Source of the DNA: an uncultured Flavobacteriales bacterium | Lineage (GTDB): Bacteria > Bacteroidota > Bacteroidia > Flavobacteriales_E > Vicingaceae | Reading direction: 5' to 3' | NCBI GenBank assembly: GCA_905479915.1 | Contig: CAJQOH010000007.1 | Span: forward strand, 1-64,000 | DNA length: 64,000 nt | Shown here: positions 38,706-47,503 of the stretch, in pieces | How the letters are laid out: the number at the start of each line of letters is the position of its first letter | How positions within the stretch are numbered: the stretch's first letter is position 1 | The notes under the pieces: model-generated | What the model was told of the DNA's origin: nothing | Seen by the model: the letters and a program-made list of their open reading frames with translations, nothing else | The model's database searches: none | Program-made: the position numbers and the translations under genes

Positions 38706-39158
38706 TTAAACCATACTAGGAAAAGGATGTTTCAAGTAAGAGAATACTTTCTCATAAGTTTTACCTGAAACTTCTTCTGACAAATAAATCATTCCATTAT
38801 TGATCAATTCAATTGCCTCTTCATAAACATTTTTACTTTCTCCTTTCTTAATAAAACCTGAAGCTCCAGCAGTTATCATCTCTTTTATAAACTCAGGGCT
38901 CTCCCAAAAAGAAGTTGCTAGTATTTTAATATCTGGATCAATTTTTTTTAACTCTCTAGTCGCGTCAATCCCATTCATATTTGGCATATTCACATCCATT
39001 AAGACAACATCATAATCATTTTTCATAACCAAATCTATAGCCTCATAGCCATCAGTAGCTTCTCCTTTTACAACAATCATTGAATCAGATAGAACTAATT
39101 TCAAACCATCTCTAACAATATCTCTATCATCTACAACTAACAACCTTATTTCATCCAT
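38706..39158 (-). CDS. receiver-domain-only response regulator (NarL-type REC)
   Basis: 150 aa. Receiver domain residues 3-125: acidic pair in VVDDRD, phospho-acceptor Asp in VVLMDVNMPNMNG, Ser/Thr switch in ILATSFW, conserved Lys in GFIKKGES. The most similar receivers are those of NarL/FixJ regulators, but the LuxR-type DNA-binding domain (~65 aa) is absent. The protein ends with a short tail (EEVSGKTYEKVFSYLKHPFPSMV), and the neighbouring gene begins 18 bases away, leaving no room for a frameshifted HTH. Inferred: a signalling protein acting by protein contact, or a phosphate sink. No histidine kinase is adjacent. Confidence 0.85.
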   Translation of the reverse strand: MDEIRLLVVDDRDIVRDGLKLVLSDSMIVVKGEATDGYEAIDLVMKNDYDVVLMDVNMPNMNGIDATRELKKIDPDIKILATSFWESPEFIKEMITAGASGFIKKGESKNVYEEAIELINNGMIYLSEEVSGKTYEKVFSYLKHPFPSMV

Positions 39159-39337: not shown

Positions 39338-41239
39338 TTACCTTTTAATAAACAAGTATAAATACCCGTCACTCTTTTTTGTTACGTTATAAAACAAATC
39401 TCCTTTATATTCAAAAAAATCTTTATTTGTAGAAGAAACAATGCAATCTAATTTATCTTCTACTTTTATTTGGTCACACAAATCAAAAGAATTTAAATGT
39501 ATAGGCCTTACACCATCACGATAAGAATCTGTAAATAATTGATACTCTAATTCAAATTTTTTGAGCTTCAAGCCTACATTCTTATACCCCCTATCTTCTA
39601 TCATATCCACAACATTTTTATAATCACTATGAAACTCTAAAAAGCGACTAAAATACTTTTTATACCTATCATCCGTCACCTTAATTTCTGATGTAAATGG
39701 TACAACAGTAATCAATGGACGACTATAATTAAACAATAAAATAACCACAGCATTAAATACAAATCCAAAAATCACCAAATAAATTAAAATTTTAGATTTC
39801 AACTCTTTTATTATAAAATACGCCAAAACAACAGTATGAAAGATGTAAAAAGGAGCATGCAACTTAATCCAAGGTTGCCATTTCAAATAAAAACAAAAGA
39901 ATAAGAATGATAAAATAATAACTATAAGTAAAACGACTATCCCCCTATTGTATTTTTTATAAAATATGAATAACCATATAATAGTTAGTAGCATTAATAT
40001 AGTATGATATGTATTTGCTCCATTGTTTTCATGAGTAGACAAAGGATCTACAGAGTAATTTATGTAACTAATATTGTAATCGTTTATATCTACATTAATT
40101 AGTTCATGAATTTTCTCGGTGGCAGCTGCTGCTAAAGGCGCAATCTTAGGTAATCCAAATTGATTGGATAAATTTTTTGTAACACTAGAAATTAAACCCG
40201 TTACGGAATGAGTTTCATTAGCATACGAATTTTGAAGACTAGGATTTGTACCAAGTATACTGGAGGTAAGTTGATAATTCCTTGAAAAATGGGCAAAATT
40301 TATCACAACAAATACCAGTCCTACCAGCAAATAATTAAGCCAAACTATTGGCATTTTTTTAAATGCAATTTGGTATAAATGATAGACAGCCCAACTAAAA
40401 ATAAATGGAGTCAAATATAAATACGCAGTACTTTTTGTTGCAGCAGCCATACCCAAAGCACACCCAAGAAAAATGAAATTTACAATGGCCTTACCTTTTC
40501 TTGTTTTAATTAAAAAATAAATACTCACCACCATAAAGAAAGATACTACCAATTCATTATGTGTAGATGAACCCAATAAAATTACCTCTGGGATACATAT
40601 TAAAATAAAAACTGAAAGTATTTGTCCGAACCTACTTAGCTTTAATTCTTTGCCGATCAAGCTTATTCCTATAGCTGTTCCTATTAAATAAAACAGCTGA
40701 ACTGTATTAGAAAGAAAGTCATTACCTAGTAATAAGTTAACATTCAAAAGCATTACCTCTGAAAAAACAGGGAAAATTAACTGTTGATGAAATGGTGTTC
40801 TATAATGAGCTAAGCTTTCATTTTTAATCCAATGAATCGTTCTAGCCATATGATAAAGCATAGAATCCCAATTATTGGTAGGGTAAATTAATCCTTGAAC
40901 CAAAATTCCAACAAGAATAAAACCAGAAAAACCAATTAAAAACTTTTCAAAAAAAGAAAGTCTTTTTAATCCATTTTTGGTTTTAACCAAAAAAGCTCGG
41001 AGCTTTTTATAGGATTTTTTTTGATAAACAGCATAAATTATAACAGCATCTATAACGCCCCAAGCTGTTATCAAACTATAATAATTTAAGGATTTGAACA
41101 AACTCAAAACCTCTGTTAATCCTAATACTAATACTGAGAATAATAAAATAGACTTCAATATAGATAACCTTGTATCATCGCCAGATATAGAGAGCAAGGT
41201 TATACCTAAAAAACATATCAATAACAAAATAACGGCCAT
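39338..41239 (-). CDS. GT39/GT-C-like polytopic membrane glycosyltransferase, paralogue 1
   Basis: 633 aa, roughly eleven to thirteen membrane helices, then a ~150-residue C-terminal soluble part rich in aromatic and charged residues. After the first helices a loop carries NWDSMLYHMARTIHWIKNES.AHYRT, which resembles the first extracytoplasmic loop of GT39-type (ArnT/PMT-like) proteins, where acidic residues take part in catalysis. Known: GT-C enzymes transfer sugars from polyprenyl phosphates outside the membrane. Inferred: the same for this protein; acceptor unknown. The most diverged of three tandem copies (HQQLIFPVFSEVM replaces YPQLNSAPFAEEL). Confidence 0.72.
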   Translation of the reverse strand: MAVILLLICFLGITLLSISGDDTRLSILKSILLFSVLVLGLTEVLSLFKSLNYYSLITAWGVIDAVIIYAVYQKKSYKKLRAFLVKTKNGLKRLSFFEKFLIGFSGFILVGILVQGLIYPTNNWDSMLYHMARTIHWIKNESLAHYRTPFHQQLIFPVFSEVMLLNVNLLLGNDFLSNTVQLFYLIGTAIGISLIGKELKLSRFGQILSVFILICIPEVILLGSSTHNELVVSFFMVVSIYFLIKTRKGKAIVNFIFLGCALGMAAATKSTAYLYLTPFIFSWAVYHLYQIAFKKMPIVWLNYLLVGLVFVVINFAHFSRNYQLTSSILGTNPSLQNSYANETHSVTGLISSVTKNLSNQFGLPKIAPLAAAATEKIHELINVDINDYNISYINYSVDPLSTHENNGANTYHTILMLLTIIWLFIFYKKYNRGIVVLLIVIILSFLFFCFYLKWQPWIKLHAPFYIFHTVVLAYFIIKELKSKILIYLVIFGFVFNAVVILLFNYSRPLITVVPFTSEIKVTDDRYKKYFSRFLEFHSDYKNVVDMIEDRGYKNVGLKLKKFELEYQLFTDSYRDGVRPIHLNSFDLCDQIKVEDKLDCIVSSTNKDFFEYKGDLFYNVTKKSDGYLYLFIKR

Positions 41240-41331
41240 AAACTAAAATTAACGAGATAAAGAAAAGGAATCAAATTTATTTACCACTGATCTTAAACCA
41301 AAATTATCAAAAGCCACAAAACATACTGCCA

Positions 41332-43233
41332 TCATTTTTTTAAATATAGAAATAAGTAGCCATCATTATCCTTTGTCGCATTGTAATAGATTGTTCCTTC
41401 ATATTTTATTTGATTTTCATATTCAGTTGAGACAATACAATCTACATTATTTTGAATAGGAAGCGATTCACTAAGCAAACATGAATTAATATGTATTGAT
41501 TTAATATCACTACGATATGAATCTACAAACAACTGATACTCCATACTATAACTTCCTAACATCAAACCAATATTTTTATATTTTTTTACAGAAATAATTT
41601 CTTTAACCTTCTTATAATCATGATGAAAATTAAAAGAATTACTAAAGTACTTTTCATACCTATCATCAGACATTGTAACATCATAAGTAAAAGGGGGTAG
41701 CGTAATGAATGGTCTACTAACATTAAACACCAATATTAAACAAGCATATATCACAAAGCCTAAAATAGAAAGGTTCAATACGAGTTTAGATTTTAAAAAC
41801 TTCGTTAAAAAGTAAGCTATAATTACAGAGTAAAACATAAAAAAAGGCACATGCAACTTAACATAGGGAACCAATTTCAAATAAAAACAAAAGGTTAGAA
41901 AAGAACACACACACACTACCCAAAACAAGGTTAATTTGATATTATGCTTTTTTGCGTAAATCAACATCCAAACCATACTCAATAACATTAATAACATATG
42001 GTAAATATTTGCGCCATTGTTTTCATGTATTGCTAATGGATCAAGTTCAAAAGAATTAAAAGTTGTTTTAGGATTATGAATATCTTCACCTATTGCATCG
42101 TGTAATTGATCTGTTAGGTTATAAACAATTGGTGTTACCATTGGAATACCAAACTGATAAGAAATATTCCTACTCACATTAGATACCATCATTTTTAATG
42201 AATGCTCCTGATTGACATAGGAGCCATTTATCTCCTCTGTTGCTCCAAGAATAGTTGATGACAATTGATAGTTCCGTGAATATTGACCTGTATTAACTAA
42301 GGCAAAACAACACACTAGTAGGCTACAATACGATAACAAAAACCACTCTTTTTTGAGCACTATAAAATAAACTATGTACCCAAAGAAAACAGTAACAAAA
42401 GGTGCAAGGTATAGATAAGCCGTATGCTTTGTTGCCGCTGCTAAACCAAGAGAAAACCCTAACAAAACAAAGTTAACCACTGTTTTTTCTGAACTAATCT
42501 TCAAAAAATAATAGATGCACATTAACATAAAAAAAGAAAGGACTATTTCATTATGTGTAGAGGAACCGAGTAAAATAACCTCAGGAATACATACCAAAAT
42601 AAAAGCCGAGAATAGTTGTCCGAATCTATTTAAACCTAACTCTTTCGCAATCAAACTTATTGAAAAAAAGGCGCTCAATAAATAAAACCATTGCACACTA
42701 TTTGATAAATAATCATTTCCAAAAAGTAGATTAACATTTAAAATTAACTCTTCCGCAAAAGGTGCCGAATTTAACTGAGGATAAATACTTGTTCGATAAT
42801 GGGCTAAGCTCTCATTTTGTATCCAATGAACAATTCTAGCCATATGGTAGGCCATTGAATCCCAATTAGCTGTAGGATAAACTATCCCTTGAACAAAAAC
42901 TCCTGCTAAAATAAAAATTGAAAAACCAACAAAAAACTGTTCAACTCTTGATAAATTTTTAATCGTTTCTTTTAATTTAACTCTTAACGCATAGATTTTT
43001 TTATAAGCTTCTTTTTTATAAATAACATATAGAATAGAAGTATCTATGATCCCCCACACTATAACCAAACTAAAGTAATTCAAAGAATAAAACACACTAA
43101 GAATCTCCGTTACTCCTAATACTAAAACAGAGTATATCAATACAGATTTCAATACGGACAACCTTGTATTATCTACAGATATAAAGAGCAAGATTAACCC
43201 CAAAAAGCATATCAATAATAAAGCAATTGCCAT
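41332..43233 (-). CDS. GT39/GT-C-like polytopic membrane glycosyltransferase, paralogue 2
   Basis: 633 aa, the same length to the codon as its neighbours. N-terminal helices (LLLICFLGLILLFISVDNTRLSVLKS), the loop NWDSMAYHMARIVHWIQNES followed by LAHYRTSIYPQLNSAPFAEEL, further helices, then the conserved C-terminal section YSMEYQLFVDSYRSDIKSIHINS and VDCIVSTEYENQIKYEG. Closer to paralogue 3 than to paralogue 1. It starts 18 bases after paralogue 3's stop and the gap shares ACTAGTTACTTTT with the sequence upstream of paralogue 3. Likely one operon of three. Confidence 0.72.
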   Translation of the reverse strand: MAIALLLICFLGLILLFISVDNTRLSVLKSVLIYSVLVLGVTEILSVFYSLNYFSLVIVWGIIDTSILYVIYKKEAYKKIYALRVKLKETIKNLSRVEQFFVGFSIFILAGVFVQGIVYPTANWDSMAYHMARIVHWIQNESLAHYRTSIYPQLNSAPFAEELILNVNLLFGNDYLSNSVQWFYLLSAFFSISLIAKELGLNRFGQLFSAFILVCIPEVILLGSSTHNEIVLSFFMLMCIYYFLKISSEKTVVNFVLLGFSLGLAAATKHTAYLYLAPFVTVFFGYIVYFIVLKKEWFLLSYCSLLVCCFALVNTGQYSRNYQLSSTILGATEEINGSYVNQEHSLKMMVSNVSRNISYQFGIPMVTPIVYNLTDQLHDAIGEDIHNPKTTFNSFELDPLAIHENNGANIYHMLLMLLSMVWMLIYAKKHNIKLTLFWVVCVCSFLTFCFYLKLVPYVKLHVPFFMFYSVIIAYFLTKFLKSKLVLNLSILGFVIYACLILVFNVSRPFITLPPFTYDVTMSDDRYEKYFSNSFNFHHDYKKVKEIISVKKYKNIGLMLGSYSMEYQLFVDSYRSDIKSIHINSCLLSESLPIQNNVDCIVSTEYENQIKYEGTIYYNATKDNDGYLFLYLKK

Positions 43234-43251
43234 AAATCAAAAGTAACTAGT

Positions 43252-45153
43252 TTATTCCATAAGATACAAACAGAGGTATCCTTCATTCTCTCTGGTTACG
43301 TTTAAATACCTCTTTCCTTCATAATCAATAAAGTCATGCTTATCAGTAGAAACTATGCAATCAATTGGAGATTCTACTTCCAGTTTTTCGCATATTTTAT
43401 GTGATTTTAAGTGAATCGCTCTAATGTCACTTCTATAAACATCTGAAAACAATTGATACTCCATACTGTAAGGCCCTAATTTTAAACCGATATTCTTTAA
43501 CTTCTTAAAAGTGATCATATCCTTTACCTTTTTATAGTCATGGTAAAAGACCACAGATTTACTAAAGTATTTTTTATATCTGTCATCATCCATTTTTATA
43601 TCCCATGTAAAAGGAGGGTATGTAATAAATGGCCTAGTACGATTAAAAGTTAATATTGCAATAGCGTAAATCACAAATCCTAACACACATAAATAACGTA
43701 AAATATTTTGATTGAATATTTTGATTAAAAAATAAGCAAGAACTACAGAATAGAACACGAAAAATGGAGTATGCAACTTAACATATGGAACCCATTTTAA
43801 ATAAAAACAAAACAATAAAAAAGATAAAACACAAGCTATCCAAAACAATTTTAATTTTAGATCATGTCTTTTTATAGTTACAATCATCCAAACCATACTT
43901 AATAGTATCAATACCATATGGAAAATATTAGCTCCATTATCTTCATATGTTGCTAATGAGTCTATTGCATAAAAGTCATAAGTCGTTTTAGGATTATTAA
44001 TGTCTTCATTAATTAAATCATGTAATGTTACCGTTAAATTATAAACAACCTGTGTTACGTATGGGACTCCAGCCTGACACGATAAATTTCTTGAAACATT
44101 AGACACCATCATTTTTAATGAATGCTCTTGATTTACATACGATTCATGAAGCGTATCATCAACACCAAAAATAGATGAAGACAATTGATAGTTACGTGTA
44201 TAATGGCCCGCATTAACTACTACAAAGCCACATATTAAGAGACTGCAATAAGGCAATAAAAATCGCTCTTTTTTTAGTATTAAGTAATAAATAATATATC
44301 CAGAAAAAATAGCTACAAATGGCATAAGATATAGATATGCAGTATGTTTTGTTGCAGTTGCTAAGCCAAGAGATAAACCTAAAAACAAAAAATTAATTAC
44401 TGTTTTTTCTGAAACTATTCTAATAAAATAGTAGATACTCATCAACATAAAAAAAGAAAGAACTGTTTCATTATGAGTAGATGAACCTAATAAAATAATC
44501 TCTGGTATACATACCAATATAAAAGCTGAGAATAGTTGTCCAAATCTATTTAACCCTAACCCTTTTGCAACCAAACTAATTGCAACAATGCTTCCTAATG
44601 TATAAAACCATTGAATACTATTTGATAAATAATCATTTCCAAAAAGTAGATTAACATTAAGAATTAATTCTTCAGCAAAAGGTGCCGAATTTAACTGAGG
44701 ATAAATACTTGTTCGATAATGAGCTAAACTCTCATTTTGTATCCAATGAACAATTCTAGCCATATGGTAGGCCATAGAATCCCAATTATTTGTAGGGTAA
44801 ACTAGTCCCTGAACTAAGATTCCTGCTAAAATAAAAATCGAAAAACCAATAAAAAATTGTTCAACTCTTGATAGACTTTTAATCGTTTTTTTTAATTCAA
44901 CTCTTAACAATTGAATTTTTTTATACGATTCTTTTTTATAAATACTATAGATCAGAGTAGCATCTATAATTCCCCAGACTATAACCATGCTAAAATAATT
45001 TAAGGAAGTGAACAAACTCAAAATCTCTGTTACTCCCAATACTAAAACTGAAAATAGCACTACAGATTTCAATATGGATAACCTTGTATTATCTACAGAT
45101 AGAAAAAGTAAGGTTAGACCCAAAAAGCATATCAATAATAAAATAACTGCCAT
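43252..45153 (-). CDS. GT39/GT-C-like polytopic membrane glycosyltransferase, paralogue 3
   Basis: 633 aa, first transcribed of the three. Same architecture: hydrophobic N terminus (AVILLLICFLGLTLLFLSVDN), loop NWDSMAYHMARIVHWIQNES, a central segment VNQEHSLKMMVSNVSRNLSCQ shared almost exactly with paralogue 2, and a C-terminal part with MEYQLFSDVYRSDIRAIHLKS and DCIVSTDKHDFIDYEGKRYLNVTRENEGYLCLYL. Preceded by the CWC gene at 37 bases, so it may be in the folB-CWC operon. Function inferred by family resemblance only. Confidence 0.72.
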   Translation of the reverse strand: MAVILLLICFLGLTLLFLSVDNTRLSILKSVVLFSVLVLGVTEILSLFTSLNYFSMVIVWGIIDATLIYSIYKKESYKKIQLLRVELKKTIKSLSRVEQFFIGFSIFILAGILVQGLVYPTNNWDSMAYHMARIVHWIQNESLAHYRTSIYPQLNSAPFAEELILNVNLLFGNDYLSNSIQWFYTLGSIVAISLVAKGLGLNRFGQLFSAFILVCIPEIILLGSSTHNETVLSFFMLMSIYYFIRIVSEKTVINFLFLGLSLGLATATKHTAYLYLMPFVAIFSGYIIYYLILKKERFLLPYCSLLICGFVVVNAGHYTRNYQLSSSIFGVDDTLHESYVNQEHSLKMMVSNVSRNLSCQAGVPYVTQVVYNLTVTLHDLINEDINNPKTTYDFYAIDSLATYEDNGANIFHMVLILLSMVWMIVTIKRHDLKLKLFWIACVLSFLLFCFYLKWVPYVKLHTPFFVFYSVVLAYFLIKIFNQNILRYLCVLGFVIYAIAILTFNRTRPFITYPPFTWDIKMDDDRYKKYFSKSVVFYHDYKKVKDMITFKKLKNIGLKLGPYSMEYQLFSDVYRSDIRAIHLKSHKICEKLEVESPIDCIVSTDKHDFIDYEGKRYLNVTRENEGYLCLYLME

Positions 45154-45190
45154 AAACTAAAAGTAACTAGTAAAAGAAAAGGAAGCAAGT

Positions 45191-45373
45191 TTATTTACTA
45201 TCTGTATTCATTTTACCAATACAAGGTTCACACAAACAATCTTTATATTTTGATTTTAAAACAGCTAAGTTTTTTGTTGAAATTTGATAATTAGTACACC
45301 AACAATTATCATTTGGTTGACAAGAAAAGTCATTGCCACATTTAGCACATTTTATTCGTCTTTTATCGCTCAC
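45191..45373 (-). CDS. cysteine-rich CWC-family protein
   Basis: 60 aa, GTG start overlapping the folB stop by 11 bases. Seven Cys in CAKCGNDFSCQPNDNCWC and LCEPC arrangement, the CWC signature plus a terminal CxxC, indicating one or two zinc ribbons. Function unknown; the family occurs in Bacteroidota and Proteobacteria as a stand-alone ORF. Coupled to folB. Confidence 0.85.
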   Translation of the reverse strand: MSDKRRIKCAKCGNDFSCQPNDNCWCTNYQISTKNLAVLKSKYKDCLCEPCIGKMNTDSK

Positions 45374-45817: not shown

Positions 45818-47503
45818 TTACTTTTTCTTAGCCCAAAAATCTTTCAATGTAGCTGTTCTATTAAAAATTAAATGATCTGATGTTGAATCATTATCAACAC
45901 AGAAATAACCTAAACGCTGAAACTGGTAACGCTCATGTGGTTTTGCATCTTTAAGTGCCAATTCTATTTTACAGCCTTTTAATATTGAAAGTGATTCCTT
46001 ATTAATAAACTCTTTAAAATCTTTTTCTTTATCTCCATCTGGATTCTCAACTGTAAACAATCGATCATAAGCATTTACTTGAGCAGTAACATTATGCGAA
46101 GCAGAAACCCAATGTAACGTTCCTTTTACTTTACGTTTACTTTCTTCAGATCCACTACCACTCTTACTTTTTGGATCGTAAGTACATTTTACCTCAACAA
46201 CATTCCCATCAGCATCTTTAACAGCTTCTACTCCATTAATAATATAACCATGCTTTAACCTTACTTCTTTTCCTACTCCTAATTTAAAAACCTTTTTAGG
46301 ACACTCCTCTAAGAAATCACCTCTTTCAATGTATATCTCTTGTGAAAATATCATTTCTCGTTGACCAGCATTTTCATCTTCAGGATTGTTATCTGCCATA
46401 ACAACTTCTGTTTCTCCTTCAGGGTAATTGGTAATTACCAATTTTAAAGGATCTAACACCGCCATTATTCTATTGGTAGTCTTATTCAAATCTGTACGAA
46501 TACAAGATTCTAACAAAGCAACATCAATCATCTGTTCTCTCTTAGAAACGCCAACAGTATCAATAAAGTTTCTGATAGATTTAGGGGTATAACCTCTTCG
46601 TCTTAAACCAGAAATAGTAGGCATCCTAGGATCGTCCCAACCGTTAACTAAATTTTCTTCCACCAACTGCATCAACTTTCGTTTACTCATTACAGTATAG
46701 TTTAAATTTAATCGAGAAAACTCCCTTTGCTTAGGCCTCAATTTTTCATCATGCACCTGATCTAAAAACCAATCATACAATTCTCTATGCGGTTTAAACT
46801 CCAATGAACATAGCGAGTGAGAAATTTGTTCTACATAGTCTGATTCTCCATGAGTCCAATCATACATAGGATAGATACACCAATCACTACCTGTTCTATG
46901 GTGAGGTTTATGCATAACTCTATACATTATTGGGTCTCTCATCAACATATTGGTATGAGTCATATCAATTTTAGCTCTTAATATATGCTCACCCTCTTTA
47001 AATTCTCCTTGCTTCATTCTATTAAACAAGTCTAAATTTTCTTCTACACTTCTATCTCTAAAAGGACCATTAACACCTGGTTTTGTTGGAGTCCCTTTTT
47101 GTGTAGCCATATCCTCAGAAGATTGAGAATCAACATAGGCTTTTCCATTTTGAATCAACAATACTGCCCAATCATATAGTTGTTGGAAATAGTCTGAAGA
47201 ATAGCATTCTGCATCCCATTGATAACCTAACCAGTTTACATCATACTTAATTGCATCTACATACTCTTGTTCTTCTTTTGATGGATTGGTATCATCAAAC
47301 CTCAAATTAACAGGAGAGTTATACCTTTCTCCTAAACCAAAATTTAAACAGATTGCTTTTGCATGACCAATATGTAAATACCCATTTGGTTCTGGCGGAA
47401 ATCTAAACTTTAAGCTATCAGATGAATAGCCTTCTTTTAAATCTTCTTCTACTATTTGCTCAATAAAATTGAGTGATTTTTTTTCTTCTTCCACGTTATC
47501 CAT
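45818..47503 (-). CDS. glnS: glutaminyl-tRNA synthetase
   Basis: 561 aa. Class I core: FRFPPEPNGYLHIGHAKAICLNFG (HIGH), RFDDTNPSKEEQEYVDAI, VMSKRKLMQLVEE (KMSKS-like), DDPRMPTISGLRRRGY, and a C-terminal two-barrel anticodon-binding domain (RLKHGYIINGVEAVKD; YQFQRLGYFCVDNDS). Known: charges tRNA-Gln directly, so the indirect GatCAB route may be dispensable for Gln here. Its ATG overlaps the gltX stop (TAATG), tying the two related synthetases together. Confidence 0.97.
   Translation of the reverse strand: MDNVEEEKKSLNFIEQIVEEDLKEGYSSDSLKFRFPPEPNGYLHIGHAKAICLNFGLGERYNSPVNLRFDDTNPSKEEQEYVDAIKYDVNWLGYQWDAECYSSDYFQQLYDWAVLLIQNGKAYVDSQSSEDMATQKGTPTKPGVNGPFRDRSVEENLDLFNRMKQGEFKEGEHILRAKIDMTHTNMLMRDPIMYRVMHKPHHRTGSDWCIYPMYDWTHGESDYVEQISHSLCSLEFKPHRELYDWFLDQVHDEKLRPKQREFSRLNLNYTVMSKRKLMQLVEENLVNGWDDPRMPTISGLRRRGYTPKSIRNFIDTVGVSKREQMIDVALLESCIRTDLNKTTNRIMAVLDPLKLVITNYPEGETEVVMADNNPEDENAGQREMIFSQEIYIERGDFLEECPKKVFKLGVGKEVRLKHGYIINGVEAVKDADGNVVEVKCTYDPKSKSGSGSEESKRKVKGTLHWVSASHNVTAQVNAYDRLFTVENPDGDKEKDFKEFINKESLSILKGCKIELALKDAKPHERYQFQRLGYFCVDNDSTSDHLIFNRTATLKDFWAKKK

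Follow-up and report, generated by a model that had tools for sequence, protein, structure and literature searches.

The window (the whole stretch of 64,000 nucleotides analysed here, from an uncultured Flavobacteriales bacterium) contains three tandem genes that very probably represent a lineage-specific expansion of a fast-evolving GT-C glycosyltransferase gene, single-copy in relatives, with each copy encoding a periplasmic sugar transferase and carrying its own promoter-like box. The expansion is of an ordinary, lineage-specific sort and concerns an enzyme of a known kind. The three equal gene lengths, striking in a single genome, lose their significance when orthologues are brought into the comparison. 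With three copies in one genome and one in relatives, the locus offers a compact system for the question of acceptor splitting in GT-C duplicates.

Three tandem copies and their single-copy orthologues

Copy 3 (43252..45153), which is transcribed first, copy 2 (41332..43233) and copy 1 (39338..41239) are adjacent on the minus strand, start with ATG and have exactly 633 codons each, as described in the initial annotation, and each encodes a GT-C glycosyltransferase, the fold being assigned by modelling. The three proteins align with zero gaps, and in this ungapped alignment copies 2 and 3 are 71% identical, copies 1 and 3 54%, and copies 1 and 2 52%. The shared stretch NWDSM-YHMAR-HWI-NES-AHYRT noted previously was recovered in all three. 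They are flanked upstream by a Cysteine-rich CWC protein gene (45191..45373, minus strand, 60 aa), found near the single-copy orthologue in most relatives, and downstream by a response-regulator (RR) receiver protein gene (38706..39158, minus strand, 150 aa), located upstream of the orthologue in four relatives. No further members were found in the genome. A second PMT_2-class membrane protein of 543 aa is encoded on another contig of the same genome (C13, L087:7179-9547), where its gene overlaps that of a GT2 protein; such pairing is usual for a donor synthase and a GT-C enzyme.

Exactly one match was detected in 9 of the 13 other genomes of the genus; the same triplet, sought in these relatives, was found in none of them, and three copies occur only in the genome studied here (G000). 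In two of the four relatives with no match (G007 and G009), the contig ends exactly at the expected gene site, so the gene need not be absent there. All nine orthologues adjoin FolB/CWC/RR and/or TPR/LigA, with the GlnS and GltX tRNA synthetases further out; contig ends cut some of these neighbourhoods and, in G003, the gene itself, leaving eight complete orthologues. The ancestral single gene, flanked by CWC/FolB/GlnS on one side and TPR/LigA on the other in most of the genus members sampled, would then have expanded in tandem. Seven of the eight complete orthologues are also 633 aa long and the remaining one is 635 aa, with 43–60% identity to the window copies. From the equal lengths it had been concluded that indels were selected against in the triplet. 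This reading falls, because single-copy orthologues have the same length, down to 43% identity: the sequences indicate that 633 aa is the ancestral, normal length of the enzyme, inherited by the copies, and says nothing about the triplet.

The RR receiver gene (window 38706-39158; L022, L024, L025, L028 and L030) shifts its place at this locus. In the window and in G013 it is on the downstream side of the enzyme gene(s), in G001, G003, G004 and G010 it is on the upstream side, and at the enzyme locus of G002, G005, G006 and G011 it was not seen. GlnS (window 45818-47503) is a separate gene beside GltX in the genus members with the enzyme; the GlnS search in G008 and G012 gave only a weak match (24–25% identity), probably GltX. 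In several relatives the contig ends close to the gene, which suggested strain variation, but a rough hand estimate was not significant and the idea was dropped.

Beyond the genus, the taxonomic family has matches in 11 of 46 genomes, counting the own genome. For the class and the phylum, samples of 395 and 396 genomes, which overlap and both include the own genome, gave few strong matches; the best were from G326 (E 1e-128) and G280 (5e-71). A member from a second genus (G023, L074:421-2319; 632 aa) has unrelated neighbours (radical SAM, MnmE, RNase E/G and DNA glycosylase) and branches among the sequences of the genus, which suggests that it was placed there by transfer. Relatives were detected neither in phages and plasmids (tblastn) nor in viral contigs (scan), so an origin in phage seroconversion is without support. 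The family was also rejected as a candidate for the O-glycan transferase of Bacteroidota that is still undiscovered (PMC12871550), being too patchily distributed.

Fold, topology and family membership

The AlphaFold model built from 11 sequences (window and related loci) had a mean pLDDT of 79 and a pTM of 0.86; a model from three sequences gave a pLDDT of 35. The top 26 Foldseek matches in the PDB were all GT-C enzymes or complexes containing one (E values of 7e-5 to 6e-2), and the matches included PglB, ALG9, ArnT, Pmt4, OST subunits, DPY19, ALG6 and Emb proteins. The solved GT-C structures gave TM-scores of about 0.4 and a large rmsd, placing the match at the level of the fold only. The model supports the GT-C superfamily fold suggested in the initial annotation, with no one family singled out. 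A sequence search of the PDB yielded no match up to E 10, and ArnT-type (GT83) family models in Pfam and NCBIfam no match up to E 1. Copy 1 weakly matched the LA_3751/LA_3752 family of putative glycosyltransferases (NF047440; 23.9 bits, with a cut-off of 200 bits).

Hydropathy and charge predict 14 transmembrane helices, with loop 119-178 (loop 1), a large loop (326-409) and a C-terminal domain (504-633) outside; the loop 74-96, with 8 K/R residues, and helix hydropathy place loop 1 and the C-terminal domain on that side. Three predicted helices precede the helix leading into the presumed catalytic loop. Residues D125, Y129, H130, R133, H136, W137 and N140 are invariant in all 12 sequences. 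D125, an acidic residue of the first large periplasmic loop, is also present in a Verrucomicrobia relative (L020, 29% identity), which likewise keeps the neighbouring residues of NWDSMxYHMxR; across the 12 sequences these residues vary little or not at all.

The copies had previously been described as GT39-like. A set of protein O-mannosyltransferases would agree with the weak Pfam PMT_2/PMT matches at about residues 166-313 (PMT_2 1.6e-7 for copy 3 and PMT 1.4e-5 for copy 2, both over the Pfam cut-off) and with the presence of Pmt4 (9I5K) among the fold matches. However, PMT_2 is a broad family name, the PF02366 cut-off is passed by copy 2 only (25.2 bits, gathering score 22.7; no match for copies 1 and 3), and the PglB and ArnT fold matches are as good as that of Pmt4 or better. 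GT39 enzymes are marked by an acidic pair in loop 1, and GT66 enzymes by WWDxG. No DE, ED or DD pair was found within residues 118-160 in any of the 12 sequences, and there was no MIR domain match and no GT39-specific evidence. The GT39 label is therefore not supported, and we regard a GT39 identity as highly improbable.

The best fold match was to the PglB/STT3 oligosaccharyltransferases (GT66; 3RCE, 6GXC; E 7e-5), but identity is 12%, WWDxG is absent from the sequences examined and a lipid-linked oligosaccharide donor is not indicated. ArnT (GT83; 5F15/5EZM; E 9.7e-4) resembles the window enzymes in its GT-C fold, multi-helix core and periplasmic C-terminal domain, and in the polyprenyl-phosphate-sugar donor presumed for them. 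However, the two share 9% identity, the presumed catalytic Asp follows the first helix in ArnT and the fourth predicted helix in the window enzymes, and a lipid A modification operon is not nearby in the window. Our literature search found no study of this GT-C subfamily.

Proposed function and gene context

The comparison with known GT-C enzymes indicates that the proteins are most likely inner-membrane enzymes that take a sugar off a polyprenyl-phosphate carrier and add it to an acceptor in the periplasm. Each would consist of 14 helices, with three helices before an 11-helix GT-C core, and a periplasmic C-terminal alpha/beta domain, and for transfer would use D125, a residue of the NWDSMxYHMxR stretch in the first large periplasmic loop. 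One sugar may thus be moved, in an ArnT-like manner, from polyprenyl-phosphate-sugar to a periplasmic glycan or lipid acceptor, the donor presumably being made by an unlinked GT2 synthase. Chemistry of the same kind has been proposed for the three-component extracytoplasmic glycosylation systems (GT136 ORF12), in which a lipid-linked donor and a GT-C enzyme acting outside the membrane serve a surface glycan acceptor (PMC11127046); this likeness is one of description rather than sequence, and the window locus differs in having no linked flippase, donor synthase or CBM match.

The absence of an acceptor gene nearby, noted previously, was confirmed: no linked donor synthase, flippase or acceptor gene was found in the window or the relatives within the genus, where the neighbours are housekeeping genes (LigA, TPR, RR, CWC, FolB, GlnS, GltX, LspA and DksA-type). 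A lipid-linked donor is suggested by the gene context in distant relatives only, since the enzyme gene of G326 overlaps one for a GT2 protein of the lipid-linked-sugar-synthase type, and a similar GT2 gene is found in the G280 cluster. In the latter, two relatives lie among genes reading as glycosyltransferases, an ABC-exporter ATPase and an aminotransferase (Pfam was run on the two PMT_2-class proteins only). This surface-polysaccharide-like cluster (L073:8388-17459) encodes two different large PMT_2-class proteins, of 686 and 693 aa. GT2 relatives with 59% and 39% identity are present in the own genome. No donor synthase was assigned, because the closest of these matches holds one stop and GT2 relatives are also present in relatives with no enzyme.

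Origin of the triplet

Copies 2 and 3 formed a strongly supported pair of sisters (100/100). Copy 1, the most diverged, branched without firm placement: the free tree grouped it with the G013 orthologue (86/90), apart from copies 2 and 3, and in the topology test the monophyly of the three copies was neither supported nor rejected (p-AU 0.357). The tree would thus allow copy 1 to be a paralogue of greater age, or copies 2 and 3 to have arrived by transfer.

The homology that the initial annotation saw upstream of copies 1 and 3 (41240-41284 and 45154-45198) was borne out, with 39 of 45 positions agreeing; in the next 45 bases further upstream, only 16 agree. The 18-bp gap before copy 2 matches the stretch before copy 3 at 16 of 18 positions. 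Compared orthologues share only 28–33 of the 45 bases with copies 1 or 3, less than these two share with each other. The upstream stretches of both copies contain sequence resembling the CWC gene at its 3' end (GTAAATAA). Because of this CWC-end-like stretch at both copies and the 39/45 match, the duplicated unit probably ran from the CWC tail through the enzyme gene. The same match bears on the idea that copy 1 was resident at the locus and copies 2 and 3 joined it by transfer from another lineage. This idea would agree with the separate position of copy 1 in the free tree, and the G023 member, which belongs to another genus and lies at an unrelated locus, indicates that the gene can move; however, the upstream bases of copies 1 and 3 are closer to each other than to those of the compared orthologues and monophyly of the copies is not rejected, so we consider such a transfer rather unlikely.

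Synonymous divergence between copies 2 and 3 is 0.33 (pS) over codons 1-240 and 0.64 beyond (permutation p=0.0002), with the lowest values (0.17-0.24) over codons 101-180. No such step was observed in the control single-copy pairs (G001/G002, G004/G010 and G004/G005); smaller synonymous steps (0.16-0.17) were found in copy 1/copy 2 and copy 1/G001. The simplest reading to which these data point is gene conversion of the 5' halves of copies 2 and 3 after an older duplication.

Estimates of dN/dS were about 0.2-0.3 for the copies (0.14-0.31 across all pairs tested), and the proteins are therefore under purifying selection, as had been proposed. The enzyme is 58–60% identical to its G001 orthologue, and LigA, FolB, GlnS, GltX and the DksA-type protein are 83–94% identical at a broadly similar synonymous divergence, so it is the enzyme protein itself that evolves fast. 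Its gene encodes one of the fastest-diverging proteins of a housekeeping neighbourhood, which would fit an enzyme shaping the cell surface.

Divergence of the copies and its possible meaning

Copies 2 and 3 were initially thought to differ most in their loops, and different substrates were proposed on this basis. The first statement holds for the large loop, which is 63% identical, but not for the first periplasmic loop (98%), and TM11-14 (63%) and the C-terminal domain (60%) have diverged as well. The second does not follow, as single-copy orthologues of different species have mean identities of 62%, 57% and 63% in the large loop, TM11-14 and C-terminal domain, respectively, so copies 2 and 3 are no more diverged than these, and their 5' likeness is attributable to gene conversion. 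At sites invariant among single-copy orthologues, the three copies have changed at 9.4, 11.8 and 14.5%, more than most of the single-copy genes (2.5–12.3%). Copy 1 has altered four such sites in loop 1 (Q139K, Y151H, S156F and P158V), and these sequence changes leave room for a shift in specificity.

It is quite conceivable, though short of probable, that the copies all perform the same reaction and provide dosage only, drifting under purifying selection. The dN/dS values, the zero gaps, the retention of the catalytic-loop residues and the divergence of the 3' halves at the orthologue level agree with this reading, which explains less well the near saturation of synonymous sites beyond the converted region, indicating that the copies have long been kept, and the changes of copy 1 at loop-1 sites that are invariant in single-copy orthologues. 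A division of labour, with the same donor but different acceptors or linkages, leading to a variable surface decoration, can be put forward only tentatively. Between copies 2 and 3, loop 1 remains nearly identical but identity is 60–63% in the large loop and C-terminal domain, all copies alter 9–15% of the invariant sites (2.5–12% in single-copy genes), and each copy has its own promoter-like box. However, the identity of loop 1 coincides with the low pS, conversion explains it with no selection on the donor, and the divergence of the 3' halves equals that of single-copy orthologues. More speculatively, and with little likelihood, the enzymes might be a GT-C family of their own, with three additional helices at the N-terminus, and in this tandem set conversion might keep the donor-binding half common while the acceptor-facing half diversifies, giving a modular variation of surface glycans.

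Promoter-like elements upstream of the copies

In flavobacteria, a TAnnTTTG box spans positions -12 to -5 of the transcript start, and 5.5% of mRNAs were leaderless in a flavobacterial study (PMC9723704). A TAnnTTTA/G box was found at -12 to -5 of the ATG in 11 of 12 genes of the enzyme, with TTG 20 or 21 bases upstream in eight. The element of copy 3 (45158..45188, minus strand) comprises TTG at 45186-45188, a 20-nt spacer and TACTTTTA at 45158-45165, ending 4 nt before the ATG. That of copy 2 (43238..43269, minus strand) begins within the end of copy 3, with TTG at 43267-43269, followed by a 21-nt spacer and TACTTTTG at 43238-43245. The element of copy 1 (41244..41274, minus strand) is preceded by the CWC-3'-end-like GTAAATAA and has TTG at 41272-41274, a 20-nt spacer and TAATTTTA at 41244-41251. 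These upstream stretches look like candidate flavobacterial promoters with a predicted leaderless start at the A of the ATG, because the box is placed at -12 to -5 of this codon, and the transcript of each copy would start there, from its own box. The pattern is not enriched across the window (21 observed, with 21.7 expected from simulated sequence), so the promoter reading rests on its fixed place before the copies and orthologues. Among the 52 genes of the window, only the three copies have the element at that distance from the start codon.
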